DNA of 30,317 bases from Isohypsibius dastychi (taxonomy: Eukaryota; Tardigrada; Eutardigrada; Parachela; Isohypsibiidae), in NCBI GenBank assembly GCA_034696485.1, contig JAQIWT010000169.1, positions 1 through 30,317 on the forward strand, given 5' to 3'. The position numbers were made by a program, and so were the translations under genes. The notes under the pieces are model-generated. The model saw only the letters and a list, made by a program, of their open reading frames with translations. It made no database searches and had not been told where the DNA came from. This document shows, piece by piece, positions 885 to 29,239 of this stretch (within the stretch, counting starts at the first letter, position 1; the number at the start of each line of letters is the position of its first letter).

Positions 885-1024
885 TTCTTCACTGTTTTGT
901 CGCTGAATAAAGTAAACCGGTTGACGCCTGCAGGCATTATCGTCGGCTTTGTTGTGATTTTTTACGTTTTTCGTGGTAAACATCTTCTTACAGTTTCTGA
1001 ACGATCTCAAACATTCACAAGAAA

Positions 1025-1511
1025 ATGATTTTATTCACCGCGAAAATAACGTTGCGGATTCCAACGAATTTCCTGCCGTTCCCGCTAAACACTGCAACAA
1101 GGATGGAAATAACACAACGGCGAATATCTCTTGTGCAAATCGACTCAGTGAGAATGAGCTTTTCATTTTATGTCGACCATTTCTAATTTTAATGCGAATC
1201 GGCGGGATATTTTTCACTACTCCGCTTCTATCCCGAAAACATCGGCCGAAAATCATTCGTCACAAGCCGACCAGTTGTGAACGAATCGAACTGGTCTCCA
1301 AATATCACTACCTGTTCGCATTCGTCGCGTTTGTCACTCATTTCGGAGCGACGCTCTATGACATCAACGAACGATTGCGGGTTGTAGACTTTAACGAACT
1401 TAACGCAAGAAGCCTGGAAAGATTGATTCCGAATGTTGGGATGGTTCTTTGGTTTGTTTCGGTTATCGTCGTACATCTCATATTCATTCGTGCATGTTGG
1501 CGACAGGACTG
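1025..1511 (+). pseudogene. Truncated, frameshifted gustatory-receptor-like pseudogene (A2)
   Basis: This is a copy of the first part of gene C, covering the N-terminal region through TM2 up to the motif FIRACWRQD. The ATG at 1025 aligns with the gene C start at 3859, but one G is missing near 1041 (GCG-AAA versus GCGGAAA), so the frame is lost after about six codons. The open frame that covers the rest has no ATG; it could begin only at a GTG at 973. Homology to gene C stops abruptly after base 1511, and the frame then runs through unrelated sequence to a stop at 1593. TM3-TM7 and the two 3' exons are missing. Together with gene A upstream it forms the left half of a duplicated A-A2 / B-C pair. 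Confidence 0.8.
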
Positions 1512-1950
1512 TGTTTTACTTGAAGTGCGAAAAAATCTGGGGTTTTTAGCACATTTCTTCCTGATTAATACTTTTATTTATATTTCTTTTTGAATTTATG
1601 GTTTCGAAGTCGATGTTGCCGAATGAAGATACTCAAAAGAAAGAAACTTATAAGGAATTCGAGAGTACGATGAGTTGACTGTTGATATTTGTAGATTACC
1701 GTTTTTTTGCTGAGTGGACGAAAATAGAATGCCAGATCAGACCCGATTACGATTACCTCAAATATAAATTTATAGCTCATCACAGATCGATGTATCCCAT
1801 TTTCATTTGAAGTGGGGAATTTTACCGAACGTCACCGTGAATTTTATCCTCGAATTTGCGCCGTCGTTTTTTTCTGTTTCGACACTAAATATTAACCAGC
1901 ATGTTGATATAGTTAATTTCTGTATGATTATTTTGCATCTCGAATATATA
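1512..1950 (+). other. Segment between pseudogene A2 and gene B, with a possible TATA box
   Basis: The 440 bp right of the duplication breakpoint carry no recognisable gene. TATAAATT at 1763-1770 lies about 155-190 nt before the candidate ATGs of gene B and could be its core promoter. Earlier in-frame starts for gene B (ATG 1924; a TTG at 1807) fall here and are considered less likely. Confidence 0.3.
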
Positions 1951-3586
1951 ATGCTCTCTTCTGCTGTCAGTCTGGAACACCCGAATCAAATGGCAGACTC
2001 TGACAGCGGCCCGACGCCGACGTTCTACAAATTATGCCGACCATATTTTTTCTTGATGCGAATAGGCGGGTTATTTTTTCTTCCCCAACGAAACGCACCG
2101 GAAATATTTTGGAGAGTGTATTCACTCGTTGGTTTCCTTTTCATCCTTTTATTTTGTGGGAAGACAGTTTACGTCGGAGGTGAATACCTCCACTCAATGC
2201 GGACCTCATCTCGCAATCTCGCCGAAATCGTAAACATCATGAATTTCTTCGTTTGGTTATTTAATATGATTGTCAGCTCGATTATTTTCATTCGAGCTTG
2301 CTGGAAGAAAAATCTGTTACTCAAGTATTTTTATTTATGGAACGAGTACCGGTATTGTTCGTTTTCGAGTGACCGGAAGTCGGCGGAAGTTGATGACCGC
2401 TCGAAAAAATGGATTTGCGTGATGACCTTTGGGGCTTTTATTTTGATTTTGGGAAATATTCTGACATTATGGATGCCCGTTCTTTCGGATTCGCTTCCGT
2501 ATCAGGATTTGAGGAACGCAATGTACGGACCTCATACCGGAAGTCTCTTTATGTCGATCAGTACAATCGCCGGTCATTTCTTCTGCAGTTTCGTTTATAT
2601 AGCGCCGATGTTTCTTTTTATGATAATTTCCGGATTGTTATGGCAGGAATTCGCGGCGATTGCTTCGGATATTTCGGAGAGGGTTGGAGAAAATGGAGAA
2701 TTTCGGGGAGAGTTGGAATGGTTCCGTCAGCGACATGAGAAGTTGTGCCGGTTGATCGATCATGCTGACAAGATATTTTCGCTGTATATTTTGGCGACAG
2801 TGTTTTGTTCGGTTTTGGAAATGCTGATGTTGGTGTTCAATATTTACGGGAACAGTGAGTTTGAGAGACCGATCATGCATTCTGTGACACAAGGATTCTG
2901 GTTCGTTACTTATATGCTGCAGCCTGCATTAATTCTGTGGACAGGATGGAAAATTAACATTATGGTACGATGTATTTCATATGATGTTTTCATGAACGCT
3001 TAATTTGATTTACTACAGTAGGTCTTAAAATAGATCAAAGTTTTCATCATGTTTTATTCCTTTCTTTACAGAAATAATTTTGTTGCAGGCACATTCACCT
3101 TCGGAGTATATTTATCGACTCGATTTGAGTAAATTATCCATCACGCAGAGTCAGCAAGTGCAGTTGTTTATGAGTAAACTGACAACTGAACGAATTGGAT
3201 TCACGGCCTGGAAGCTGTTCACACTTGACGCATCCGCCATTTTGAGCGTGAGTGAACTGGATCGTTATTTTGTCTCTTATCGCAAAAGTTGATTAAAACG
3301 CGAAACACTTTACACAGTTTTCCCTGTAGACTTAAATTTGTTTTTGTGATTTAACATAACTTTAATTACTGGTAGATCATTTAACACTTTCCATCATCCA
3401 TAATCCATAATTCCATAATTCAAAGTGATGGATGCTTTCTATCAAAATTTGAAACATAATGAATTTTTGTTTCAGGTTATTGGTGTCTACCTCACGTATC
3501 AAATCCTCTTATTCCAACTTCAAATGGATATAAAGGGTGGAGAAGAGCCGGTCAAAGCCAACTGTTCATGCAACTGCTCTTTCTAA
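1951..3586 (+). CDS. Gustatory-receptor-like 7-TM protein (gene B)
   Basis: Exons 1951-2964, 3089-3247 and 3476-3586 are joined in phase 0 and give about 374 residues. The large first exon holds six hydrophobic segments (among them GFLFILLFCGKTVYVGG, FVWLFNMIVSSIIFIRACW and FVYIAPMFLFMIISGLLW). The second exon encodes the loop before TM7. The third has the TYxxxxxQ signature and a Cys-rich tail, CSCNCSF. The family members are ligand-gated cation channels with an intracellular N-terminus, acting in sensory-cell membranes. The start is uncertain: ATG 1951 is chosen because it gives an N-terminal segment of ordinary length before the conserved LCRPYFFLMRIGG block; ATG 1924 and 1990 are also in frame. 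It pairs with gene C in a unit duplicated from A/A2. Sequence identity to genes C and D is moderate and strongest in the C-terminal third. Confidence 0.78.
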
Positions 3587-3698
3587 AACTTTTTCAGGAA
3601 AAATTTCAAGAGCATATTTTAATTGTTCGCGATACGCTTCGTGAATTATTTGTACGTTTTAACAAACGCGTGTTTTTTCACGCATTTTGTTCAAATTA

Positions 3699-3718
3699 GC
3701 CGACAGGAGTTCTCACGG
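3699..3718 (+). promoter_or_regulatory. Conserved upstream element of the C-type receptor genes (copy 2)
   Basis: Identical 20-mer to 865-884, 160 nt before the gene C start. Confidence 0.4.
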
Positions 3719-3858
3719 TTCTTCGCTTTTTTGTCGCTGAATGAAGTAAACCGGTTGTCGCCTGCAGGCATGATCGTCGGCTTTGTTGTGATTTCTTACG
3801 TTTCTTCGTGGTAAAATTTTTTTGCGGTTTCTGCACAATCTTAAAAAATTACCTGAAA

Positions 3859-5416
3859 ATGATTTTATTCACCGCGGAAAATAACGTTGCTGACTCCAAA
3901 GACTTCCCGGCCGTCCCTGCTAAACACTGCAACAAGGATGAAAACACCACAACCGCGACTGTCTCCTGCGCAAATCGACTCAATGAAAATGAGCTTTTTG
4001 CATTATGCCGACCATTTCTGATTCTAATGCGAATCGGCGGGATTTTTTTCATTCCGCTTTTATCGCGGAAACATCGGCCGAAAATTATTCGTCACAAATT
4101 GACCAGTTGTGAACTGATCGAACTGGTCTCCAAATATCACTGCATGTTCGCATTCGTCGCTTTCGTCACTCATTTTGGAGCGACGCTGTATGACATCAAC
4201 GAGCGATTGCGAGTTGTGGACTTCAACGAACTGAATGCAAGAAGCCTGGAAAGATTGATTCCGAATGTTGGGATGGTTCTTTGGTTCGTTTCGGTTATCA
4301 TCGTACATCTCATATTCATTCGCGCATGTTGGCGACAAGACTTCCTCTTTGCGTTCTTCATGAAATGGCAACAGCTCAGATATCACTGCGTTTACAAAAT
4401 CCCTACCTGCATGGAGTTCCCGCAATATTTCTCCAGAATGCGAAATCGCGCTGTTTTGGTCGCACTGATCGCCGTTGCTCTCAACTTGTTGTCAATTTGG
4501 TTTCCTTTGGCCATTTCATATTATCCAGAAATGCGCAAGGCATTATTCGGTTACACCGACACCCCGCGACTTGGGTGGATTATTGTGAGAGGAATCGGAC
4601 ATTTTTACGGAAGCTTCGTTTACATCATCCCAGTTTTCCTCCTGATCATGGTCGCTGTTGTAATTTTACGGGATTTCAATCATCTGACACACGACCTCTC
4701 GCATATGATCACAGAGGATGGGGAAATCGAGGCAGTTTGGATTGAATGGTTCCGTCAAAGTCACGAAAGATTGTGTCGATTATTGGCTCAGGCTGATCGG
4801 ATATTCTCGTTGTTTATCTTGGTGACCATCTTCGTCGGAGTTGTTGAAATGTTTCTGCTGATCTTCTCGGTTTACGCCAACTCTGCGAAGGACCCACTTC
4901 TGGGGAACTCGTTGTCGAGTTTGTTTTGGTTTTCGATATATCTTCTCCAGCCAGGTCTTGTGTTCTGGATTGGATCGAAAGTTAATAACGCAGTAAGACC
5001 CAGTTTTTCTCAAGTTTTTCGGGAGTAGGAAGTTTGCCATTTCAGGCGCATGCTCCGCTGGAGTTTCTGTACAGAATTGACCAGCGAAAACTGACGACCC
5101 ATCAAGCACTTCAACTCCAAATGTTTCTCAACAAGCTTACGTGCAATCGCATTGGATTCACTGCTTGGGGATTCTTCACGATTGACGTGACCGCCATGTT
5201 GAGCGTGAGTAGACAGAAAACCAAGTCGCCCATAGGGAAGGGGGGGGGGGGCATGTGGATGAACAACTGCATTCATTCGCTGGTTGTTGCTTGCAGATGG
5301 TTGGAGTGTACATGACATATCAGATACTCCTGTTTCAAATGCAACTGGATCTCATATTCAACGACAAGCAAAACAGTGTCGGCAATAGCACGGCGACGAA
5401 CAAAACAGAGTTATGA
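3859..5416 (+). CDS. Gustatory-receptor-like 7-TM protein (gene C)
   Basis: Exons 3859-4992, 5046-5204 and 5297-5416, all phase 0, encode 470 residues. An N-terminal tail of about 50 residues precedes the conserved block LCRPFLILMRIGG. Hydrophobic segments follow: FAFVAFVTHFGATLY, MVLWFVSVIIVHLIFI, VLVALIAVALNLLSIWF, FVYIIPVFLLIMVAVVI, LFILVTIFVGVVEMFLLIF, SLFWFSIYLLQPGLVFW and the TM7 motif VYMTYQILLFQ. The block HERLCRLLAQADRIFS matches the conserved intracellular loop of Gr proteins. The tail after TM7 has two N-x-T sites (NST, NKT), which fits the inverted, C-terminus-out topology known for this superfamily. ATG 3859 is chosen because no ATG lies upstream in frame (only a GTG at 3808). 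It is the intact counterpart of pseudogene A2 and is clearly paralogous to gene D. Confidence 0.82.
5240..5251 (+). repeat. Poly-G tract (12 G) in gene C intron 2
   Basis: A homopolymer lying about 45 nt before the 3' splice site of the last intron of gene C. It may vary in length and is prone to sequencing error. Confidence 0.7.
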
Positions 5417-5800
5417 TTAAGCGAGAATCGTCATTTGGGATGTCTGGTTTCAGAAGGTCGACTCCGAACAGTGCGTGTCTCTAGATATCCCGCCGAATTT
5501 GTAAATCTGCGAAAGTTTGGCTGGATTAAAAGCAGTTCAGAGCTCATTCATCGGGTTCAACATTTTCTTCATGCAAGTCCTGCCATTTTCTCGTCTAGTT
5601 CGGAAAAGCCGACGTGTTTTGAGAACAGATTAAACAGCTCGTGTAAAACTGTGTCTTGACATTCGGGAGAATCTGTTGGTTGCCCATGTTTGTAACTGGC
5701 TGAAACAAGCCAACATCGTTCATCTGGGCCTAGTCGTCGCAATAAATTAGATTCAAAAGACCCAAAGTTGCGCAAAATTTCGTTTCATTTGGTTAAATTG
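5417..5800. other. Intergenic stretch between genes C and D
   Basis: The open frames here are short and resemble no known protein. No RNA gene or repeat was seen. Confidence 0.5.
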
Positions 5801-5820
5801 GCCGAAAGGTGTTCTCATGG
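5801..5820 (+). promoter_or_regulatory. Conserved upstream element of the C-type receptor genes (copy 3, diverged)
   Basis: GCCGAAAGGTGTTCTCATGG differs from copies 1 and 2 at three of 20 positions and lies 167 nt before the gene D start. It survives although the surrounding non-coding sequence has largely diverged, which argues for selection. Confidence 0.4.
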
Positions 5821-5967
5821 AATTCCGCTTTTGTAGCGGGAACAATCCTCCGGCGGTTGACCCTGGGGGTTTTTTCAGTGTATGACTGATTTTATGAAAT
5901 TCAGTAACCCTTTCTTCACAGATCAAATGCAACACCACACCATGCGTAGTGCTCACCTTTTTTCAAA

Positions 5968-7491
5968 ATGAGTGATTCTAAGGCTTTTTCGGTTTCCATT
6001 GTCTTCGGCGGAGACAACTTCAAAGGCTACCCAGTCTTCCCCACGAAGCTTCCCGCGAATGAAACTACATCACTGAATATATCACGGGTAAAACGCCTTT
6101 ACACTAACCAGCTGTTCCTACTCTGCCGACCCTTTCTAATTCTCATGCGAATCGGTGGGTTCTTTTCCATTCCCCTCTCATCCTCCAAACGCCGGCCGCT
6201 GATCATTCGTCACAAACTGACCAGTTGTGAACGAGAAGAGATTGTCTCCAAATATCACTGTCTATTCGCGTTCACTACCTTTGTCGTTTATTTCGGAGCG
6301 GCGCTTTATGACTACGTCGAACGTTTGCGGATTATTGACTTCAACGAACTGAATGGAAAAACTCTAGAAATCTTGATCCCGATTGTTGGACTGATTTTAT
6401 GGTACGTCTCAGTCATAATTGTCCATGTCATTTTCATTCGAGCTTGCTGGCGCAAAGACCTCTTGTTCGCGTTTTTCATCAAATGGGAGGAGCTTAAATA
6501 TCACTGCATTTTCAATCTGCCAAACTGTATGGAATTTCCTGGATATTTCTCCAGATTTCGCAATCGTTGTATCACAGTCGCTGTAATTGCCCTGCTTCTT
6601 AATATCGTGTCAATATGGTTTCCTTTAACGCTCTCATATTATCCGGAAATCCGTAAAGAATTATACGGCTACACGGATCCGCCGTTACTTGGATGGATTA
6701 TCCTTAGAGGAATCGGTCATTTTTATGGCACATTTGTCACCATTGTCCCCATTTTTCTTCTGGTCATTCTGGGTGCAGTGATTCGGCGGAATTTCAACCA
6801 TCTGACGCATGACCTTTCGTGCATGATCACAGAGGATGGGCAGATTGAGGCAGTTTGGATTGAATGGTTCCGTCAAAGTCACGAGAGACTGTGTCGATTG
6901 TTGGCCCATGCTGATCGGATATTCTCGTTCTTTATTTTAGAAGCCGTGTTCGTAGGAGTTGCGGAAATGTTTCTGCTGATGTTTTCGGTTTATGCGAACT
7001 CGGGGAAGCAGCGATATTGGGGACAAGCGGTGACCAGTATGCTATGGTTTGCCATGTACATATTCCAACCTGGGCTGGTTTTCTGGATCGGATCAAAAGT
7101 CAACAACGCTGTAAGAGTCAGTGTTTTCTTAGTTTTTCGGGAGAAGGAAGTTTGACATTTCAGGCGCACGCTCCGTTGGAATTTTTGTACAGAATTGACC
7201 AGCGAAAATTGTCGACCCATCACGCACTTCAGCTCCAAATGTTCCTGAACAAACTCACGTGTAACCGCATTGGATTCACTGCCTGGGGATTCTTCACCAT
7301 TGACGTGACTGCTTTGTTAAGCGTACGTTCGCCACGACCAGTGCACACTTGGAACGAGCTGATGATTTTTGTCCTCCACTTTGCAGATGGTCGGGGTCTA
7401 CATGACCTATCAGATACTACTATTCCAACTGCAGTTAGACCTGATATTCAACGAGAAGCAAAACAGCGGAGGCAACAGCACAAACAATTAA
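5968..7491 (+). CDS. Gustatory-receptor-like 7-TM protein (gene D)
   Basis: Exons 5968-7110, 7164-7322 and 7387-7491, all phase 0, give 468 residues. The layout is the same as gene C: a tail of about 50 residues, then LCRPFLILMRIGGFF, six membrane segments in exon 1, the loop exon, and TM7 with VYMTYQILLFQ. The C-terminal tail holds an N-x-T site (NST). The ATG at 5968 is the first in frame. Protein identity to gene C is high over the whole length, including HERLCRLLAHADRIFS, so the two come from one duplication older than the A-A2/B-C event. It has no B-type partner in the window. A role as a chemosensory cation channel is inferred from family membership; the ligand is unknown. Confidence 0.82.
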
Positions 7492-7718
7492 GATGGTTGA
7501 TTCGCCATTAACAGTCCTTTGTTTTCTGTCATTTACATCATCTTAAGTAGCTGATAGCTGAAAAGCTACCTCAGATTCAGTTGACATGATCCCTCGCCAA
7601 AATGGAACTGCACTGAGACATTGGGCACATTATTTAATTGTTTGGATAAGACGGACAATATCCGCGAGTAAAATAATAACAAGACAACCCACTTCAATGA
7701 TACTTCTGTTTCACTTGG

Positions 7719-9559
7719 TTATCTGGTGGTTGAAAATTCAGACCCGTATACAGGCAACAGGTTTTCCGATTTAGATCCTCTTCTGCTCTTGTTGTAAGAA
7801 TGGCCGTTCATTGATACAGTTTGGGCATGTAACCCGTCTTTTGATGCTCGAAATGCTTGCTCCAAATCCTCCAACAAATCCTGTACGTCTTCCAGACCAA
7901 CAGACAATCTCACGAGGTTCTCCGTAATCCCCACTGAATCCAGCAATTTCGGACATATTCCGTCATGCGTCATCACTCTCGGATAGCTGACAATCGACTC
8001 ACATCCACCCAGACTGGCTGCCAGGGTAAAAACCTTCAGAGAGAAAGCTTAAAATTCGTGGAACACATTCAGTTTAGTGCATACCTTCAAGCTTCTGAAA
8101 AACGTCCATAGCTGAGCTTTTGATCCCTTGTATCGAAATGAGAGAACACCCGAATGTCCTCGAGTCTGGCTGACGAAAAGTGCATGCTGTGGATGAGAAG
8201 GCAGACCTGGATGATTGATCAGCTCAACATGTGGATGACGTTCCAAGAACCTCCCAACAATCATCCCATTCTTCATGTGTTCCCTCATTCGAACAGCCAG
8301 AGTTTTCAAGCTTCTCATCATCAAGTAGCAATCGAATGGAGATGGTACAGCGCCGATGTTCACCTGGAAGAATCTCAGTCGTTTGGCCAAAGCCTCGTCA
8401 TTGACAGCTATGGACCCCATCATGACATCCAAGTGGCCACACATGTATTTCGTGCAAGATTGATGGGAAATATCTGCACCGAGTTCCAGGGGTCGCATGA
8501 AATATGGAGTATTGAATGTGTTGTCAACTGCAATCAGGATCTGTGGATTGTGTGCTTTGACCAGCGCAGAGAGACGGGGGATGTCAATGACCGTCATTGT
8601 GGGGTTGGAGGGCGATTCCAGCCAGACGAGTCGCGTGGTTGGTCGAAAAGACTCTGAGACACATTGAAGGTCTGTGCAGTCTGTGAAGGTGAAGCTGATC
8701 CCAAGCGGTTCAGCCACGTGCTTGAAGTAGGTTATGGTTCCTCCGTATAGCTCCTGCATTGTGATGACGTGGTCACCTGGTTTCAGTAAATGCAAGATGG
8801 CGGATAGGGCAGCAGTTCCGCTCCCGAATGTGACCGCTAAAAAGTAGTACCGGTAACATGAGTATTCTACGAAGTGTTCTGCTAGACTTTCTGGTCAGTT
8901 TTTGTGCATAAAAATCCGTGGTCAAATTGATTTCGAACAATTGTCAACACGGATCACTTTTCACCAATTAACATGGACGTTTGACAAGAGGTTCATATCA
9001 GCCTGACAGGTTTAAATTATGCAGTTATTCAGATCAGACAGAGCGTACTTCGGGGAAAATTAAGAGATTTAGACCACCAAGCAAATATCTAAATAGTGGT
9101 TTGACTGTCAGCGACTTGATTGGTTTACATTATGCCACCGGGTTTCGCTGATAAATGTTTGCAATAGAATGGCCTTCAGCACTTACAATACTGGGCATTG
9201 TCTGCTGCTGCCAGAGCTTTCTCCAAAGCGTTCCGAGTCGGGTTTCCGCATCTACCGTAGTCATACTGCGGGAAGACCCCGGGTTCACTCTGACGGAATG
9301 TTGATGACAAACAAATTGGCGGAACAAGATCGTGATTGCCTGGACACAAGGAATGAAGTCTCAGTTTTGCGTCGATAAATTATATAGCCGGTGTTTCCAC
9401 AAAATGGCGGAGAAAATAACGTAGGTTGTTCGTAAATGAGGAAAAGTTTCGCGACCAGACCTTTGAGCCACAGTTTGACAGACACTCACCCCATTGATCT
9501 GGTTCACTTCCGGCATGAACGAGTCGGGTGGAGATTCTAGTGAAGGGATTGAATTCCAT
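7719..9559 (-). CDS. CTH: Cystathionine gamma-lyase family PLP enzyme
   Basis: Exons on the minus strand are 9559-9490, 9339-9187, 8836-8085 and 8033-7719, giving 429 residues. The family uses pyridoxal phosphate to cleave cystathionine to cysteine in transsulfuration and can release H2S, acting in the cytosol. Seen here are the PLP phosphate-binding Tyr and Arg in YDYGRCGNPTRN (Y51, R53), YGGT (Y105), the aspartate in VDNTF, the Schiff-base lysine K204 in SCTKYMCGH, and the conserved C-terminal block LVRLSVGLED. Three residues that set specificity in human CTH differ: E59 is D50, R119 is T110 and E339 is A331. The C-terminal tail is about 20 residues longer than in the human protein. The start at 9559 is the first ATG in frame and gives a short N-terminus. 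Membership in the Cys/Met metabolism PLP family is sure; cystathionine as the true substrate is not. Confidence 0.88.
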
Positions 9560-15946: not shown

Positions 15947-18900
15947 ATGACGTCTGTTTATTGTTTTGTCTTGATTTTGGCGGTCCTGACCACCGGGAGT
16001 CAGGCAGCGTCTAAATTGCGGAAGATCGATCATTTCGAGTTTAAGCCGTTTGATGAGAGAAGTGGTGATCTGGAGATGTCGGCTTCGGAGAAGAAAACGA
16101 TGGTGGCGAGTATTCAGAGTGCGTTACCAGATGCTTTCAAGGAAGCACAGGAAGAAGCCACCGCCGCGTCCGAAGATATTCCGTCGCGACAGAGTCTTTG
16201 CTGTAAGTGATGCTGCAGTCTGATGGCCTATTTCTGTTTCTTGCAATAACCGGAAAACAATCTTTTCTTTGCAAAAAAATAAGGTCGCTGAATGGGTTTG
16301 ATCGAAAACGTCAGATGTTCACTTGTGCTGGATTTCGGCTCCATTGTTTCTTACCAAAAACAGAGATGATTGACCACTTGATTATCTGAATATGTTTTCA
16401 TGAAAATTCGCGTACTTTCTTATTTTTTAAGTCGGCTTGATAGAATATGAGTCTCTGTGGGAAGAACTTGAAAATACCGGTCAAATCATTATTTCTTCAG
16501 TTAGTCGTTGGTGATTTGCTTTGTACATTATTTCAAAAAAATTATTTAAAAAATAAGTAATAATAATAAAATAATAATAAACTAATTAATAAAATTATTT
16601 GAAATAAATTTTTTAAGATGAAAATAATATAAAATTAAGAATAAAGTTAATCAAAATACTAAATAATCTGTTCCTTGCGGCGATCTTATAAATCAATATC
16701 AATTTGCATTTTTTTTTCTTTTTAGCAACCGGTCAGGGTGCTCCTCAGCAGCGCATGTCTCAGATCCGTGCCAACAAGTTCAACTGGCCGAAAGATGCCT
16801 CAACAGAAATGGGGGTCGCCGCTCGCATCTCTGAGGTCGCCATGGGAAAGATTATGAAAAAGTGAGTAATCATCAATCGAAAACAAGTTCCATCCCAACA
16901 TCAGCGTCAGAAACGTCTGACACCGCGGATACTGATAAGGTTTTGTAACGAAACAAAACCACGATTTTTGTCGAAATCATGTCAGTCAACGTCCGCGACG
17001 TATTGTTTGGACATCAAGCGATGTAACACGAATAAACAACAGCAACAACATCGATAATATTTATGATCCATTCGCAGAATAACATTGCGTTGTTTTCAGA
17101 GGCAACATGAACAGTAATCATATGAGACAAGCGATGGAGGAGATTGATGCTCGTCAGACTCCGGTTGGCCGTTTCTGCGTCAACCGTGACCAACGTCCAT
17201 GCGACCCCAAGTCACGATACCGTGAACAGGACGGTTGGTGTAACAACATTCGCTTACCTTTCTGGGGTGCCGCGCTGACACCCCACATTCGCGTCACGCC
17301 TGTCCGATACGGTGACGGTAAGATTCAGAATAATATTATTTCTAGAATATTGTTTTCTGAAATTTGATATCCAGATTGTATCTTTAAACGTAAGATTAGC
17401 ATCTGAAAGAAACATCTTACCAAGAAACGAATTTCCGACGAATTCTGTATGAGCAAGATTATTTTCTCGTCTGTTAACCTTTCGAAAAACATGACAGCGT
17501 GACAAAATCGTGATTCTTCAAGAAATATGACAAGCACTTTTGTTTTGGTGCTTCTTTTGTTCTTCCCCGAATTCTGGCTTCGATTTGAGTTCGAACGAAA
17601 GCTTTAGGCCACGGGTTCAAAAACAGACAAAGTTCATGGTTCAATCTATGATCTGACGAGTATTGTGATGATGTCGCTCTTCGTTCAAAGCTGATACATC
17701 GTTCTTCTGAGTGGACGTTAGCCTGCTTTGACAGAATGAGTTGTTCTTGCAGGTCTGAGTTCCCCACGAACCCAATCAGTTGTGGCCAGCCAGCGTGGAC
17801 GTGAACTCCTTCCCAATCCACGTGAGATCAGCACAACACTCAGCCACAATGAAGATCGCCCACATCCAACAGTCACTCTCATGACAGTTCACTTTGGGCA
17901 GTTTCTGGATCACGACTTTGTGAATAGTAAGCGTTTTTTCGATGTGTGCGGACTTGAGTTCGTTGGGTCAGATATCCCTGGCTGCCCACGAAAAACTGCG
18001 GCTAATTTTCTTTTCTTTCAGCCCCAATCAGTCTGGTTCAGTCAGGTGGTAAGTAGTAGTGATTAAGAGAGACACGAACCTGCTTGGCTAATTGGACATT
18101 GTGCTGTACAGGGAATGCAGCACCACCGCAGTGTTGTAGTGTGCCTGCTCAATGTCGGGATGCTGCTTGTTTTCCGATCGAAATCTCCCCGAATGACAAA
18201 TTCTACGGACAGTTCGGTATTTTCCAGACTTGCTTGACCCGAAAACCCACAATTCTGATTTCGATTCTTGCAGGTGTCAAATGTATGGAATTTGTTCGTT
18301 CACTCCCTGCTCCAAGACCCGATTGCACAATGGGTAAAACGATAGACACAGCAGCTTTTTAAGACCCGTATAGCTTGTGTTTTCAGGTCCGCGTGAGCAG
18401 ATGAACCAGAACACGCATTTCATCGACCTTTCCCAAGTCTATGGCAGCAATGATGAAGAGAACAAGGCAGTGCGCGCTTTTGAACGGGGTGGTCTGCGCA
18501 TCAACACGTCGCCCCTGGCCGTCGATTTCCGAATGATGCTCATGCCCGCTGATCGCGACACACTGGATTGCCAGAAACTGGATGAATCTCGAGCCTGCTT
18601 CAAGTCGGGTGATAATCGTGTCAATATTCAGACGGCTTTGACAGCTCTTCACACGGTATGTGATTAGCAGGCTGTTAAACGGTTTACAGGCTTATATCAA
18701 CTGGTCAAGCTCGTCACCGCATTGTTGTGCTTTTACTGCTGCAGATCTTCCTGCGCGAACACAACAGGATTGCTGACTTTTTGTGGAATGCCCGCCGTAA
18801 CGTTCCTGATGAGATTTTGTTCAGGGTCAGAATCAAAAACCGTTACTCTTCGAAACTTGGCTTTGTAATTTCGAATATTTTCCAGGAAACCCAGAGAATC

Positions 18901-20364
18901 ATGCAGGCTCAATGGCAGGCCATGGTCTACAGCGAATTCGTCCCAGTTTTGGTCGGTGATCGAATCGCCATGGACGACAGAAACGGAATCCGATTGGTGG
19001 CCAACGGATTTTTCAATGGTTACAACGAGAACGTCAACCCTGGAACTTGGGTTGAGATGTCCACAGCTGCATATCGGTATGACTCCTCCTCCGCTCCGCT
19101 TGCAGAATGTCTGTAAATGCCTCCGTGAATGTAGGTTACATACACTGATCCAAAACTGGCTTCCAATGAAAAGGACGTTCAACGAAAGCTTCAAACCTTT
19201 CCACGAGTTCTTCTTCACTCCGTATTACATGTACGAACCAGGTGCACTGGACAATTTGGCAGAGGGTCTCTGTCATGAGAACGCTCAGTCGTTTGACAAT
19301 CAGATCACTGCTGAAATGACCAATCACCTCTTCCAAGCCGCTGACGAACCTTTTGGTCTTGACATCTTCTCATTGAATATCCAACGAGGTCGCGATCACG
19401 GTATGACATTGACAAATCAGCGTTACATTTTCTTTCGGAAAGTTTTGGAGAACAGTTTTATGAATGACTCTGGGAAGTTTCGTATAGAAAACAAAATTTT
19501 ACATGATGTACAGCATGTAATGATTGTATTGGTATCTGACGATAAACTGCATTCTTTCATACGAGAGGTTCTTACCTTTCTTCCAGGTCTTGCCACTTAC
19601 AATGACGTTCGAGAGTTCTGCGGACTTCCTCGTGCAAGAAACTTCAAGGACCTCGAAGATGTTATGACGCCCCGGTCAATCGCCGCTCTAGCTGGTGTTT
19701 ACAAGTAAGAAAGCTGAAGGAACACATTGTTCAAAAGGTCATGCTTTTTCTTTCAGGCACGTGGACGATATTGTACGAAGCTTGAAGCTGAGAAAACAAT
19801 CGATTTTCTATGTTGATTGTGGTTGCTATTTTTCTAGGATTTCTACGCTGGTGGTATAAGCGAGAACCCCGTTAATAGAGGAGACGGTCTTGTGGGACCA
19901 TCTTTTGCCTGCATCATGACCGGACAGTTCCGAGACTGGAGACAAGGTGACAGGTTCTGGTACGAAAATCCAGGACAATTCACACCAGGTAAACGAATCA
20001 GGAAATGAACTGAACGGACGCTCATGTTTTTCTTTCTTGATGTAGACCAGCTCAATGAGATCAAGAAGGTCTCCGTGGCTGGAATTATCTGCGCCAACAC
20101 GAACATTAAACAAATTCAACCAAGGGTATTCCTGGACGCAGTAGATAATCTGTGAGAATGCCCATGTGACAATGTTAGCATGTTGGTCACCTGTGCAATT
20201 CTGTTTCAGAAATCCGAGAATTCCATGCTCAAATATTCCACAAATGGATCTCTCGAAATTTTTGTCCACCGTAAGTGAAAAACTGGACCTTGCTTCATGA
20301 AGTCATTTCTATTGTAGTTGAATAATTATCTAATCCGTCTTTTTAAACGCAGATTCCTGGGTGA
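15947..20364 (+). CDS. Secreted animal heme peroxidase (peroxinectin-like)
   Basis: Seventeen exons: 15947-16202, 16726-16861, 17100-17317, 17753-17926, 18022-18048, 18112-18216, 18274-18333, 18387-18655, 18745-18825, 18886-19076, 19135-19400, 19587-19704, 19757-19772, 19838-19988, 20046-20151, 20210-20270, 20353-20364. Phases agree and give 748 residues. A signal peptide ([17 protein letters not shown]) is followed by a pro-region. Peroxidase landmarks: DGWCNN, the distal His H257 in [17 protein letters not shown], catalytic R403 in [15 protein letters not shown], proximal His H508 in [11 protein letters not shown]587 in [22 protein letters not shown], and a C-terminal [12 protein letters not shown]. 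Family members oxidise halides or phenols with H2O2 outside the cell, in immunity, cuticle or eggshell cross-linking. Odd points: the Glu that links heme in mammalian enzymes is I406, and the proximal-His segment is one residue short of the usual (F/Y)R(F/Y)GH. Exons of 27, 16 and 12 nt are very small. Confidence 0.88.
16525..16665. repeat. A/T-rich low-complexity stretch in peroxidase intron 1
   Basis: Almost pure A/T with irregular AATAAT units, including a core around 16555-16580, inside the 523-bp first intron. Confidence 0.7.
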
Positions 20365-20937
20365 GGCTGATCAAAGCATGGTTGTCACCAAATACGACGA
20401 GTCGCCATTCGAAGATGAACTCTCTTCTAAACGGTTTATATGTTCTCGCTTTCCCAGAAAGTTTGTGATTTGTGAGATGCACTAGTTTTCAGAGTCTTAA
20501 AAAGGCTGAGTGCCACCTAGTAAGTCAGTTCTTAGATTCTCTCAGGACTTCGCGACTGATGACAAAGACCTGTATATTTGTGCTTGTTATTGTACGTTCA
20601 TAGATTTCGTAACCTGAGAACACAGATCGTCATTCACAACACAGTATTTCAATCACAGTATTTCCGTTATGATGAAAGCAACCATCAATGCCAAAAAAAC
20701 AGCCATATCGAACGGAGTAACAGAATCTCCTCATATGTCCGCCAAACAAAACAGAACTCAATTCATAAATAATTTCAGAACAAGTAAATGCGACAAGCTC
20801 GATGCAAAGGTACAAATCACAGATTCAAAACAAATACAAAGTCAGCGCAACTCAAAAACTCCGGATGGTTCTAGAAAAACAGAATAAATATTTAGTCACT
20901 TCGGTTACACGAGAGAAAACCGAACAATATTTCTGTA

Positions 20938-21000
20938 GTGCAATCAGACGGTTTTATCATCAAAACTACTAAGACAGGGATAACAATTCATCATTCACAT
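20938..21000 (-). ncRNA. Box C/D snoRNA, snR38-like, copy 1
   Basis: Minus strand: box C ATGATGA at 20994-20988, guide GTTATCCCTGT, D' CTTA, C' TGATGAT, box D CTGA at 20947-20944. Short flanks pair (GTG-AA with TTGCAC, one bulged G). The guide pairs for 11 nt with the universally conserved ACAGGGATAAC of large-subunit rRNA. The D'+5 position falls on the middle G of GGG, equal to yeast 25S G2815. Copies 1 and 2 differ by one base over about 50. Confidence 0.82.
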
Positions 21001-21151
21001 TTCAAAATTCTGAAAAGCTTCCGAAAAAACCACTGACTCACGTGTCGTTCCGCTGAGCTCGTCAAGACTTTCCGCCGCCAGAAACCGATGCACTCTACAC
21101 TAACAGCAATTGTAAATACATGAAAAATAGTGCTTGGAAAAAGTTAATACA

Positions 21152-21215
21152 TTTTGCGATCAGACGTTTTTATCATCAAAACTACTAAGACAGGGATAAC
21201 AATTCATCACCAAAC
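21152..21215 (-). ncRNA. Box C/D snoRNA, snR38-like, copy 2
   Basis: Box C GTGATGA at 21210-21204, the same guide and CTTA D' box as copy 1, C' TGATGAT, box D CTGA at 21163-21160. A TTTG/CAAA terminal stem brackets it. It lies in the intron between the 59-nt and 58-nt non-coding exons. Confidence 0.83.
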
Positions 21216-21374
21216 TGCAGGCGGAAAAATTCGCGCGTTGGAAGGAACTCACTTGCTGTCATTCCGCGGCTAATTCCGATAATCCACCAAACCAACTCAA
21301 ATGATCGAAACCTGAAAAGTAATTGATGCCAGATATAACATCGTTTGAAACTGTAGAAAACATTCTAAATTAAT

Positions 21375-21440
21375 CTGATCAGAAAATAGTATCACCATTT
21401 GATTTTCTGACAGGGATAACTGAGAATATTCATCACAAAA
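21375..21440 (-). ncRNA. Box C/D snoRNA, snR38-like, copy 3 (diverged)
   Basis: Box C GTGATGA at 21436-21430, guide CAGTTATCCCTGT giving 13 nt of perfect complementarity to rRNA, D' CAGA in the same register, degenerate C' GTGATAC, box D CTGA at 21382-21379. No clear terminal stem is seen. Outside the guide and boxes it has diverged from the other copies. Confidence 0.75.
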
Positions 21441-21588
21441 AAACAAAGGCTGAAATTAAATATTTCCCGGTGCTCACCTCAATTTCCAAACATCATGCAA
21501 CAAAACCGTCGGATCTAAAACAATAAAAAGAGCGATCAAACAATAATCCGAAACAATCACTGATCATAATTTCTCAAGTCGATCTTGG

Positions 21589-21650
21589 TGCGCTCAGTAA
21601 TTTGCATCAACATGGATCATCTGACAGGGATAACAATTCATCATAAACCA
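21589..21650 (-). ncRNA. Box C/D snoRNA, snR38-like, copy 4
   Basis: Box C ATGATGA at 21644-21638, the 11-nt guide GTTATCCCTGT, D' CAGA, C' TTGATGC, box D CTGA at 21597-21594. The flanks form a TGGT/ACCA stem. It lies in the first intron after the RCE1 stop codon. Confidence 0.8.
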
Positions 21651-21688
21651 TTCAGTTCAACTTCCAGTATTTTCCGAAAGTTCTTACC

Positions 21689-22648
21689 TTATTCAAGAGA
21701 GAACTCCGTGAATGGAAAGTTGATGAAAATCCAGGAAACAAGTCCGCCGAAATATAAACAAACAATCGTGAGCTGCCTCCACTTTTCGAGCTGGCCAAAG
21801 CCGTGGAAATCCGGAACGCCCAAATAATTGCACAACGCATGCACCAGAATCGGCGCGACGACATTTCCGGTCTTCACAAACAGAAACGCCGAATAAATTC
21901 CAAAAACCGAAGTGTAGGCAATCTGGAATGCCGTCGTTATTATCGCAGATTTCGCCGGAGTTCCCAGTCGGATCCTGTCGAAAATATGATGAAGATGGGC
22001 TATCCCAAAGGCAAGTGGACTTATGAAAATAGAGGTGGAAATTCCATAGCAGAATTTCACGACGGAAATGAGGCAGGATCGATAAACGAATTCTTCCGAT
22101 AAAGGAGCGACGATATAAGCTCTCCACCAATGCAGCGAATAAATGGTATCTCGGAATATCCTCCGCCGGAAGTGGAGGTTGTAATATAACAACGAGAAGA
22201 ACGCTCGATTGTAGCCTCGCCATCTTCCCAAGAAATAATCACCGGAAATGGGTCCCGCGAACAAAATCAACGTCTGCATAAGTGGTCGAAATAGAACTCC
22301 CCAAAAGTCGATCTCTCGGATGCCCATATTGCCCAACCAGCAGCGCAGATTCGGTTCTTTTCCGCAGACGTCAAGGCGCCATTGAAAAATAATGCAGATG
22401 ATGAAGGAAATCACGGAAGCACAGAAAACTTTCACGAATCTCGTTCGGACTTCCAATGGATCGTCGCGATTTCTTGCTGGAAATGCAATCCAGTTGGGTC
22501 CTAGAGGGTGGATGTAGAGACTGGCCACGTAGCTCAGGGAAATCACGGAAGCCACAGAAATCGTCAGGAGCTCTTGTTGGAAGTTGCATCCCACAGTCTT
22601 GTCAGTCGGATTTTGGAGAGTAATCGAGTCGTTAGACACGTGAGCCAT
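21689..22648 (-). CDS. RCE1: CAAX prenyl protease 2 (RCE1)
   Basis: An integral ER-membrane protease that removes the last three residues (-aaX) from prenylated Ras-, Rho- and lamin-type proteins before carboxyl methylation. One exon encodes 319 residues with several hydrophobic segments. The ABI/CAAX protease motifs are all present: EExxxR as APLSEEFVYR (E185, E186, R190), FxxxH as FGIAH (H218, with further His in HLHH), and HxxxN as HALCN (H270, N274). The ATG at 22648 is the first of the frame. The C-terminal end is close to the family's usual length. A leader intron is likely at 22907-22805. The stop codon abuts a 5' splice site, and downstream introns carry snoRNAs. Confidence 0.93.
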   Translation of the reverse strand: MAHVSNDSITLQNPTDKTVGCNFQQELLTISVASVISLSYVASLYIHPLGPNWIAFPARNRDDPLEVRTRFVKVFCASVISFIICIIFQWRLDVCGKEPNLRCWLGNMGIREIDFWGVLFRPLMQTLILFAGPISGDYFLGRWRGYNRAFFSLLYYNLHFRRRIFRDTIYSLHWWRAYIVAPLSEEFVYRSCLISVVKFCYGISTSIFISPLAFGIAHLHHIFDRIRLGTPAKSAIITTAFQIAYTSVFGIYSAFLFVKTGNVVAPILVHALCNYLGVPDFHGFGQLEKWRQLTIVCLYFGGLVSWIFINFPFTEFSLE

Positions 22649-25253: not shown

Positions 25254-28193
25254 TCAATAATCTCCACGAGATCCGCGACCTCGACTCGGTCCGCCACGGC
25301 TTCTTCGAGGTGCTCCCCGACCTCTGCCCCCAAATCCCCTTGGGGGTCCAGCAATTCCCTGTGGTCGTTTATTTCTCCCACCAGTTCGTTCCCTCAATCC
25401 TCGATAGTCCACCTTGCATCCCTGCGCCATTTTCTCATCACAAAAAATACACCCACTTTTCTCAACTCCATCTTTATCCTCCATGACAAGCTGTCGACTC
25501 TGACAAGTCGGACACGCCTCAATCTTCACTCGCACCTTCTTCAGCGTTCCCAAGTAAATCTTCAACGAGCAGCTGTTACACGATATCCGTCGCTTATGCC
25601 CAGCTCCTTCCTCCAAAACCAAGTTGCCGGAAGGACATCCATAACAAGTGCGCACCGCGTTCATCATCAGCGAATGCGGGCACGATGGATGAGTACACTG
25701 GTTACACGGCGCCGCTTTCGGCATATCCGGAAACGGTGGATTATTATAACAGTACGGACACAGGGGGGTTCCTCGGGCGGAAGTAGTCCAGAAAACCAGA
25801 TCATACCCATCCAGGGGACACTTCATTTCTTGGTGCAGACCAATATTCCCGTCACGCGGCAAAGCGAGTGCCTCACTACAAAAGCTGCAATAGAGTCGTG
25901 GTGGTCGCGTCGTGATCAGTTTCATAAACCGCTGACATTTCCCACATCGACTAAACGGTTTCCCGGAATCGTTCAGTGTTGTAAACGACGACTCAAACAA
26001 TCCTTCCATCAACGCAATCTTCTCACAGAAATACTTGAACTTTGCTTTGAAGATGCTCAGAGTGTGATCCCGAACCGCTTCAAAATTCGCTTTTCCGGCT
26101 GCGATCAAGTTCAGTTGTTTTTCCACCCCGGACCGCATCGTTGGCAGAACAAGATCTGGGTCGATTTTATCGTAACCATGAACCAACATAATCCCCAGAG
26201 TACTCGGAATCAGACGTCTTCCGGTCGTACTAACAGCCACATAGTTACGCTGACAGATATTGTTGATATGCACCGGGATACTCGCATCCGTTCCTAGCCC
26301 ATGTTCCTCCATGAGTTTAATCAACTCACTTTCCGTTAAATAATCCGGCGGGGTTGTTTTCCGTTCAATCAATCGCACTTCCTCCACTCTCAGGACCATT
26401 TTCTCCTTGAGGTCAATCATGGCGGATGACGAAACTGCTTGAAACGGTAGAATAGACGTAAAACCTGGATCGATGACTTGAGTCGCTGTGATCTTGAATT
26501 CCTCATTTCCGAGCTTGATGAGAGCGGTGGTTTCTTTGTAAGTGCAGTCGGACATGATGGTTGCGAGGAAATGACAAGATATGTAATGGTAGATACGCCA
26601 GTGTTCTCCCCCTAAGATGGCTTCTGTGGCCGCTTTGGCTGGAGTGATGGGCGGATGGTCACCGACGTCCGTGCCCTTTTTCGGACGCTGGATGCCTTTA
26701 GCGAGAATTCCGTTGACAGTGGATGAGAAGAACGGGATTTTGCCGAGTTCGGTCGCGACTTGGCGCAGGTCAAAGTTGTCTGGGTAGCTGGAAGTTTCTG
26801 TGCGGGGATAACTGATGTAACCTTGGGTGTACAATCGTTCGGCAACCTTCAAATCGAGAAAATTTTTGACGGTATTATAAAAAGATGATAGAATCAAATC
26901 AGAACCGGTTTCCTTCGACGTACTTGCATTGTGTGATGCGGTGCCATGCCCAACCCGGCACTGGCCACTCTGAGCAAGCTGACCGTATTCAGCGCACTCG
27001 GACGCTGCTTATGGCATTCCTGGACGGAAATGGAAGCGACATGGGCCGTTTTGTTTTCCTTCAGCTGTTTCAAGATCATTTCGGCAACTTGACGATTAAA
27101 CATGGCACTCTTTGTCCAAGACGGCGTGAATGTCTCTCCTTTTGGAGTGATTAGAGTCGGCTGGATCACCCAGTACGGTTCTGGTTTAAACGAGCTGATT
27201 TCATCGTGACGCCGAACACACATGGCTAATGTTGGTGTCTGGCAAGGTCCAAACGAGATCGTTGCACTGTTCAGATCGCCAAACTTTCCATTAAAATATC
27301 TGGGAAAAACAGGACTTCCGGTTAGATTAAATTTCACCTTAACTGAAATGGTTATGCGGGATTTTCGTCTTAATGGGTCAATCAACTGAAATGTCCTTAC
27401 TTGGTCTGAAAACGAGTAAAGGCGCACCCGATCCTCAGATCCAGCTCCATTCTTGCGTCGACGGAAAGAGATTCGTTCTTGTTCGGCAGAATCAAAGTAT
27501 TCATCGCATGTTTGATATCTTTCGATGTAAGAGCACTGAATTTTGCGCGAAGAATGGTGGTCTCTCTGGGATTCCCTTTGTTCATCGTAGCTAAAAAGAA
27601 AAACCCATAAAAAAGTCAACCGGAAGTAGGGTCAGAATAATTCTCAATTACACCCGTAAATTCGACAACTTTCAATTTGATAAATTCCAAGAGAAATGCC
27701 GTCAAAGTACTCAAATATGGAACAATAATTCCGGTGACAAATGAACAATTATGAACACTTGGAAAAAGAAAAAAAAATAATATTCACCTTGAGCGCAAGA
27801 GATTACTTCGAAGCAGATATTTTCTCCCTCCTTGTCGCAATCCAGCCACAACACCAGTAAGTCAACTCCCTTTGCCTCTTGTGCTATCAGACGGGGAATC
27901 GCAAGGTTCGCATTGGCTTCGATTTGTTGAACGGGACAGTCGAAAAGTTCAGCGGGATCGGTAGCATCCCAGTTGTTATAACGTCCAGGAAAATCCACGC
28001 CCATCACATGCCCACATGTGCTAGTCATTTTGTAGTGAACGTTCTCACCGGTATTCGGCCAGGTTCCATTATATTCGTGGACGGAACAGGCGCGGTTGAA
28101 GGCTTTCCGGGAATTCAGTTGACCATTTGAAAGGATCTCCGCGATTGTCTGCGCCAGTGAGGGCTTTTCGGCCACCATCAAAACAGTCCGCAT
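25254..28193 (-). CDS. TOP3B: DNA/RNA topoisomerase 3-beta
   Basis: Minus-strand exons 28193-27788, 27590-27401, 27299-26924 and 26846-25254 give 854 residues (human 862). A type IA topoisomerase that relaxes single-stranded DNA and also acts on RNA, in the nucleus and on mRNPs with TDRD3. The N-terminal Toprim domain has E9 in AEKPSLA and the metal-binding acids in WLDCDKEGE (D118, D120, E122). The catalytic tyrosine is Y337 in YISYPRTE. Further matches are GDHPPITP and [18 protein letters not shown]. The C-terminal third has several CxxC pairs (CGKC, CSFC, CPYC, CNQC, CNSC, CPTC, CIFC) and ends in an RGG box of about 30 residues, the RNA-binding feature that separates 3-beta from 3-alpha. 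The last exon is unusually long (1593 nt). It is head-to-head with the PBDC1 gene and converges on the C9orf78-like gene. Confidence 0.95.
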
Positions 28194-28735
28194 GATGAAA
28201 GTTAAGGTCCTCGGTCAAAAAATACAAATTTCCAGGCGAACTGGCCGAAGAAACCGGTGCTTTTCGTTCGATGAGATCTCCGATTTATCTGAATCCGAAT
28301 GAAAAGACCAAAATGTAAACATTTGAATCCATACCGTGCAACCTCGGTCGAAGTAGGCCCAGGATCGTTAATGCGGTTTAGCCGATTAGTTTCAGCTGCT
28401 TAGTTTCTAACTGTTTAGTTTCTATGAGCTGTATCGCGCTTTCAAATAATGCTTGCTGGAATCAACACTAAGTTTCTATTTGGATAATATTTTGATAAAT
28501 ACTTCACAATTTCTGAAGAAAAATGAGTTGCCAAAGAATTGATTGGAATGGGTAGGCGTAGCGGTTGTGTAGTCGATTGCGGCTGCTGGATTGCACATGC
28601 AGCACATCACATCGCTTTTCCGATCTCGTCATATGGTTTCTTTCCTCTAAACGATTACCTCAATCATTTTCTCCGAGAACCGTCAAAAGTGTTTCTTCGT
28701 CGATTTTTGAAAGAAGTCGATTTTATCTAGCTGGG
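28194..28735. promoter_or_regulatory. Divergent promoter between TOP3B and PBDC1, with a triple TTAGTTTC repeat
   Basis: The 542-bp gap must hold both promoters. TTAGTTTC occurs three times in direct orientation at 28386-28393, 28400-28407 and 28415-28422, with starts 14 and 15 nt apart, followed by a similar CTAAGTTTC at about 28469. Regular spacing suggests factor-binding sites. The function is not known. Confidence 0.4.
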
Positions 28736-29239
28736 ATGGATTTGAAGGATATTGGTGCTGATGCTGCACGAAATGTGGCTTTTGCGCTGTCAGAGCCCGC
28801 GGAAAATTACGTGAACGACTCAGAAGTGGAGATGTTATGGGCAATGAAGGCCATTGAGCATGCAGAGGTCCATTTCAACCTCGTCTCAGCTGTTGATCCA
28901 CGATCTCTGCGTCTGACCGATCATGACGACCGAATGTACGCTGCATTCAAGGAAGCTTTTCGGAATGAGTTCCAGCTGAGTCCGCTGATTGTCGATCAAC
29001 TCAAAACCGAGGAAGCCAAAGAAAAATGGCGTCTTTTTATCAAAGATTTCGAGAATGTCATGGACTTCAACTATCTGACACTGTTGCGTTTGGATGCTGC
29101 GCGTGATTATTCCGAGGATAACACCATCGTCGTTCCGCGAGTTCAGTTCTTGACGATCGAGGTCGCCAGAAATCGCGAAGGCTTCAATGACGGATTACGC
29201 GCAAAGTATCCACCAAAGGCCAAGATCCCAGAAGCGTGA
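28736..29239 (+). CDS. PBDC1: PBDC1-family protein
   Basis: A single-exon gene of 167 residues, homologous to human PBDC1 (CXorf26) and yeast YPL225W. The family name refers to polysaccharide biosynthesis, but no such activity is established; the yeast protein has been linked to translation elongation factor folding. Seen here are the N-terminal helix with ALSEPAENYVNDSEVEM, then WAMKAIEHAEVHFNLV, SVDPRSLRLTDHDD, EKWRLFIKDFENVMDFNY and the C-terminal RVQFLTIEVARNREGFN. The start at 28736 aligns with the family N-terminus, though the frame is open further upstream without an ATG of better fit. It ends soon after the conserved core, without the long acidic repeat tail of the human protein. Confidence 0.92.
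   Translation: MDLKDIGADAARNVAFALSEPAENYVNDSEVEMLWAMKAIEHAEVHFNLVSAVDPRSLRLTDHDDRMYAAFKEAFRNEFQLSPLIVDQLKTEEAKEKWRLFIKDFENVMDFNYLTLLRLDAARDYSEDNTIVVPRVQFLTIEVARNREGFNDGLRAKYPPKAKIPEA

Follow-up and report, generated by a model that had tools for sequence, protein, structure and literature searches.

Four putative snR38-type box C/D snoRNAs in predicted introns beyond the stop codon of an RCE1-like gene in the tardigrade Isohypsibius dastychi

Genes of the window and the RCE1 frame

The window, that is, the whole stretch of DNA analysed here (30,317 nucleotides of contig JAQIWT010000169.1), holds a number of recognizable genes. On the plus strand, tandem genes resembling chemosensory receptors lie at 958-7511, where the frame at 3745-5028 matches 7tm_7 (PF08395) and the frames at 958, 1768 and 5950 look alike by eye. 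A gene for a Cys/Met metabolism PLP enzyme (PF01053) is found on the minus strand at 8049-8894, and a partial animal haem peroxidase gene (PF03098) on the plus strand at 18869-19708, convergent with the snoRNA host gene described below. Further along, a partial DNA topoisomerase 3-beta gene (PF01131, PF23546) occupies 25254-27008 on the minus strand, with frames in 26894-28214 being, by eye, its putative upstream exons, and the PBDC1 gene (PF04669) stands at 28562-29239 on the plus strand.

The coding region of RCE1 (CAAX prenyl protease 2) extends over 21689..22648 on the minus strand, beginning at the first ATG that the open frame offers and closing with a TAA, and the frame matches PF02517 with E 4.7e-17. 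Among 64 protein hits, the two leading named ones come from tardigrades: that from Paramacrobiotus metropolitanus has 57% identity to the frame over 94%, and that from Ramazzottius varieornatus has 51% identity over 97%; named insect proteins (32-44% identity) stand behind both. Three other hits belong to the top five of the 64, among them a match with 65% identity over 57%. Compared with seven aligned relatives (7 of the 64 hits), the frame is just 3-18 residues shorter at its end, and for this reason the stop looks genuine. Judged by eye, there is likely an additional intron 5' of the ATG.

Structure, family and predicted target of the four copies

Downstream of RCE1 the word ACAGGGATAAC occurs as four exact matches (20974-20984, 21190-21200, 21410-21420 and 21624-21634) with no fifth in the window, while its chance expectation is a mean of 0.01 and none of 100 dinucleotide shuffles reaches four, which confirms the repeated plus-strand motif of the original prediction. 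A 55-nt repeat family contains three of the four sites, and the remaining site is in a common 20-nt repeat. On the minus strand, every copy displays box C, the guide, D', C' and D in that order, as had been proposed, with box C being RTGATGA and box D being CTGA throughout; the hallmarks of a box C/D snoRNA, namely RUGAUGA and CUGA towards the two ends and C' and D' between them, are thus present in all four.

The copies are numbered in transcript order, all on the minus strand, and their spans from box C to box D are 51, 58, 51 and 51 nt. Copy 1 (21594..21644) has C at 21644-21638, an 11-nt guide at 21634-21624, D' CAGA at 21623-21620, C' TTGATGC at 21610-21604 and D at 21597-21594. Copy 2 (21379..21436) has C at 21436-21430, the longest guide of the four (13 nt, 21422-21410), D' CAGA at 21409-21406, C' GTGATAC at 21395-21389 and D at 21382-21379; the C' boxes of these two copies are both imperfect. 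In copy 3 (21160..21210), C is at 21210-21204, the 11-nt guide at 21200-21190, D' at 21189-21186, C' at 21179-21173 and D at 21163-21160, and in copy 4 (20944..20994) the same elements are at 20994-20988, 20984-20974 (11 nt), 20973-20970, 20963-20957 and 20947-20944; both have the C' box TTGATGA and a weak, degenerate D' box, CTTA. The terminal stems by boxes C and D are weak (-3.9, 0.7, -3.2 and -2.7 kcal/mol). A second guide before box D was considered and rejected, since the gap from C' to D is 6-9 nt, under the usual guide length.

Regarding the family, a relaxed Rfam search of 1801 bases against 4227 families gave 31 rows, mostly weak, in which snoR38 (RF00213) aligns to all four copies across its full model, with 29.1, 37.5, 30.6 and 37.5 bits and E-values of 0.042, 4.8e-4, 0.019 and 4.9e-4 for copies 1-4. 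In the covariance-model check suggested in the original prediction, every copy matches the snR38 family, but none reaches its gathering score of 45 bits, which is a curation cut-off, and a gathering-level Rfam scan of the whole window was empty. For copy 1, GlsR6 has an E-value of 0.038, marginally below that of snoR38, yet fewer bits (21.4 vs 29.1). Other C/D families sharing the guide, for example ceN61 and Afu_328, match some copies. The Caenorhabditis C/D snoRNA ceN61 (RF01647) likewise has a GUUAUCCCUGUC guide ahead of D' and a short model of 72 positions, and it matches copy 3 (E 0.033) and copy 4 (E 0.0014); however, these matches are under its gathering score (60) and have fewer bits than those of snoR38, and the family has no listed match to copy 1 or copy 2. 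With snoR38/snR38 (RF00213; yeast snR38, human snR38A, plant snoR38Y) the copies have the D' guide, the predicted target G and the box order in common, whereas they are shorter than the 91-position model, chiefly in the C-to-guide and D'-to-C' stretches, and score below gathering. It is well supported, as far as the sequence goes, that the four copies are snR38-type guides, probable homologs and not formal members of RF00213.

The guide perfectly complements ACAGGGATAACTG over 11, 13, 11 and 11 nt in copies 1-4, and the plus-strand motif corresponds to a conserved LSU rRNA stretch, which by rRNA numbering would belong to the E. coli A2451 loop. The middle C of CCC takes the fifth position ahead of D' in every copy, so that the predicted methylation target is the G that would correspond to yeast Gm2815; the register claimed originally is supported to this extent. 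Pairing with the rRNA stretch as conserved in other eukaryotes has -17.8 kcal/mol for three copies and -22.5 for copy 2, while the best rRNA pairing of 500 shuffled guides was -12.4 or -14.9 kcal/mol, respectively. As described elsewhere, the methylation site is fixed by the nucleotide in fifth position ahead of D or D' (PMC8162545) and yeast Gm2815 is assigned to snR38 (PMC5199042); plant snoR38Y, human snR38A and yeast SnR38 are given in one row as family RF00213, with the yeast site numbered Gm2812 (PMC3511168), and a chicken snR38 homolog with an 11-nt guide at D' is reported (PMC2653536). A 20-base conserved pattern for the species' own rRNA had no match in the assembly, in which rDNA may perhaps be unassembled.

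The assembly (30,365,899 bases in 1648 contigs) was searched by pattern; it may be incomplete, and all counts are possibly lower bounds. On its own, the 12-base guide word does not stand out as rare, with at least six matches, two of them outside this locus, against four for the reversed control; box C combined with the guide has at least five, namely these four copies and one site in contig C704, against none for the reversed control. The C704 site, TTTATCCCTGG, misses the last guide bases and lies, by eye, antisense to a putative protein kinase; it has TGATGA and the shortened guide word but no snoRNA context, and was not accepted as a fifth copy. Neither were the two off-locus sites of the 12-base word, in C511 and C794, which have no TGATGA 2-28 bases upstream: by eye, the former resembles coding sequence (bases 1-2000 of 3012), and no snoRNA boxes were found in the 401 bases viewed for the latter. 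A genome-wide snoR38 search at E 0.001, in which 62 of 6128 first-look candidates were scored, gave no match and missed these four copies too, and its outcome is therefore compatible with diverged copies elsewhere; 14 control genomes likewise gave no signal. As a side observation, C511 reads like ryanodine-receptor coding sequence and differs in appearance by eye; the assembly may include DNA of other organisms.

Predicted introns, probable host gene and possible origin of the copies

Introns were chosen by eye from GT-AG ends and then measured, and splicing is predicted on this ground. On the minus strand, intron 1 (173 nt, 21515..21687, GTAAGA...TTTTAG) is followed by non-coding exon 2 (37 nt, 21478..21514), intron 2 (166 nt, 21312..21477), non-coding exon 3 (59 nt, 21253..21311), intron 3 (153 nt, 21100..21252), non-coding exon 4 (58 nt, 21042..21099) and intron 4 (171 nt, 20871..21041), and the last exon begins at 20870. 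Each of these four consecutive predicted introns contains one snoRNA copy, in support of what had been expected; the span first assigned to the array, 20938-21650, encloses all four snoRNAs but does not reach the outermost bases of introns 1 and 4. The distance from donor to box C is 41-47 nt, and that from box D to the predicted acceptor is 79, 67, 60 and 73 nt for introns 1-4. C/D snoRNAs are described as best placed some 50 nt ahead of the branch point (PMC8162545), and the distances of 60-79 nt to the predicted acceptors are compatible with this placement.

The stop codon of RCE1 (TAA, 21691-21689) is followed by a G and then by the donor GTAAGA, so that predicted intron 1 starts 1 nt past the stop, and exons 2-4 when joined have stops in all three frames. 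Since the donor adjoins the stop, the stop looks genuine and the joined exons are open in no frame, the snoRNAs are read as lying in introns of the RCE1 3' UTR: the host transcript seems to encode the CAAX protease RCE1, and all four snoRNAs look like residents of its 3'-UTR introns. No AATAAA or ATTAAA starts on the minus strand from 19700 to 21720, and the missing polyadenylation signal speaks mildly against the host gene model. In our literature search, no paper was found on Rce1 as a snoRNA host gene.

As for the origin of the copies, copies 3 and 4 have 96% identity over a 55-nt stretch that opens with box C and closes five bases after box D, whereas their intron flanks resemble each other no better than shuffled sequences do (z -0.3 and -2.0). 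In the remaining five pairs the cores have z 5.7 to 8.7 (5.7 to 14.4 over all core pairs), against -0.6 to 0.5 for the downstream flanks and 0.5 to 2.5 for the upstream ones, where a slight likeness is possible (three pairs at z 2.1-2.5). A segmental duplication of intron plus exon is unsupported, with exon pairs at z -0.2, -0.5 and 2.2 and flank pairs at -2.0 to 2.5, though there may have been an old duplication whose flanks have diverged. Either the snoRNA unit alone was copied or converted, or the flanks diverged under selection on the unit. Copies 3 and 4 have the same D'-C' spacer, unlike copies 1 and 2, and this speaks for a recent event between the former two.

Weighing of the readings and comparison with known hosts

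With high confidence we read the minus strand as carrying four snR38-type box C/D paralogs, each in a predicted intron of its own, within the 3' UTR of an RCE1 transcript. The boxes, the guide register, the splice-site-like ends and the position after the stop codon are read directly from the sequence, and the further course would be as follows. Splicing would release each snoRNA-bearing intron, of which about 60 nt would be protected by the C/D core (SNU13, NOP58, NOP56 and fibrillarin) in an assembled snoRNP, and the D' guide would then direct 2'-O-methylation of the LSU rRNA G equal to yeast Gm2815; the snoRNAs would be expressed, with copy number giving higher output. Against this reading stand the snoR38 scores under the gathering cut-off, the empty gathering-level scan, the genome-wide snoR38 search that gave no match, the CTTA boxes of copies 3 and 4, the weak terminal stems and the 20-base rRNA pattern that had no match in the assembly.

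Three other readings have to be considered. The CTTA form of D' in copies 3 and 4, the imperfect C' in copies 1 and 2, and the 13-nt guide found in copy 2 only could mean that only one or two copies are functional and the others are decaying paralogs; this is possible but rather unlikely, as the 11-nt guide and boxes C and D are intact in all four, and degenerate C' and D' boxes are frequent among known C/D snoRNAs. Non-coding snoRNA host genes are common, and here exons 2-4 are short and, joined, stopped in three frames, which speaks for a separate, UHG-like host gene downstream of RCE1 as the carrier of the snoRNAs. That arrangement is nevertheless improbable in view of the same-strand GTAAGA donor 1 base past the RCE1 stop and of copy 1 sitting in the intron so opened, 79 nt from its acceptor. 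It is hardly credible, finally, that the repeats are sense rRNA fragments or a homing-endonuclease-like site with no snoRNA function: the plus-strand motif does equal a conserved LSU rRNA stretch, but the C/D boxes are placed near-constantly in the predicted introns, and the whole unit fits the full snoR38 model.

If the snoRNAs do lie in 3'-UTR introns of RCE1, the last predicted exon junction falls 155 nt downstream of the stop codon, and a junction that far beyond the stop would invite decay if tardigrades followed the vertebrate rule of nonsense-mediated decay (NMD). It is reported for human cells that impairment of NMD raises snoRNA host RNAs and leaves the nested snoRNAs unchanged, and an uncoupling of snoRNA from host output by NMD is proposed there for human host genes (PMC4417159). 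A tentative and on the whole unlikely extension joins copying of the snoRNA unit only, perhaps from the mature RNA, with a host of two products, the RCE1 protein and the guide of the 3'-UTR introns, whose outputs NMD would uncouple. If it is true, NMD of the spliced mRNA could separate snoRNA output from that of RCE1. Guides in introns just past a stop would offer a clean case for studying how cells keep snoRNA and mRNA output apart. The locus adds a tardigrade record of a conserved guide for ribosome modification, and our search of the open literature, judged by title and abstract, found no paper on tardigrade snoRNAs.

The guide and the clustering are both well known, and it is the 3'-UTR host arrangement and the core-only similarity that add modest interest. 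UHG and GAS5-type host genes have short non-coding exons separating the snoRNA introns, as here, whereas the present transcript seemingly also encodes a full-length upstream protein. Drosophila has several clustered snR38 genes. Same-guide copies in consecutive introns had been called unusual, with most animals spreading snoRNA copies among hosts, and neither statement finds support in the human and chicken data of two reports: of the human C/D families that have at least two expressed members, 59.5% have all of these in a single host gene (PMC8178906), and in chicken almost all snoRNA paralogs are ascribed to intragenic duplication (PMC2653536). The human SNORD12, SNORD58 and SNORD53/92 families likewise have several same-family copies per host gene (PMC8178906), whereas the introns at this locus appear to belong to the 3' UTR, directly past the RCE1 stop.
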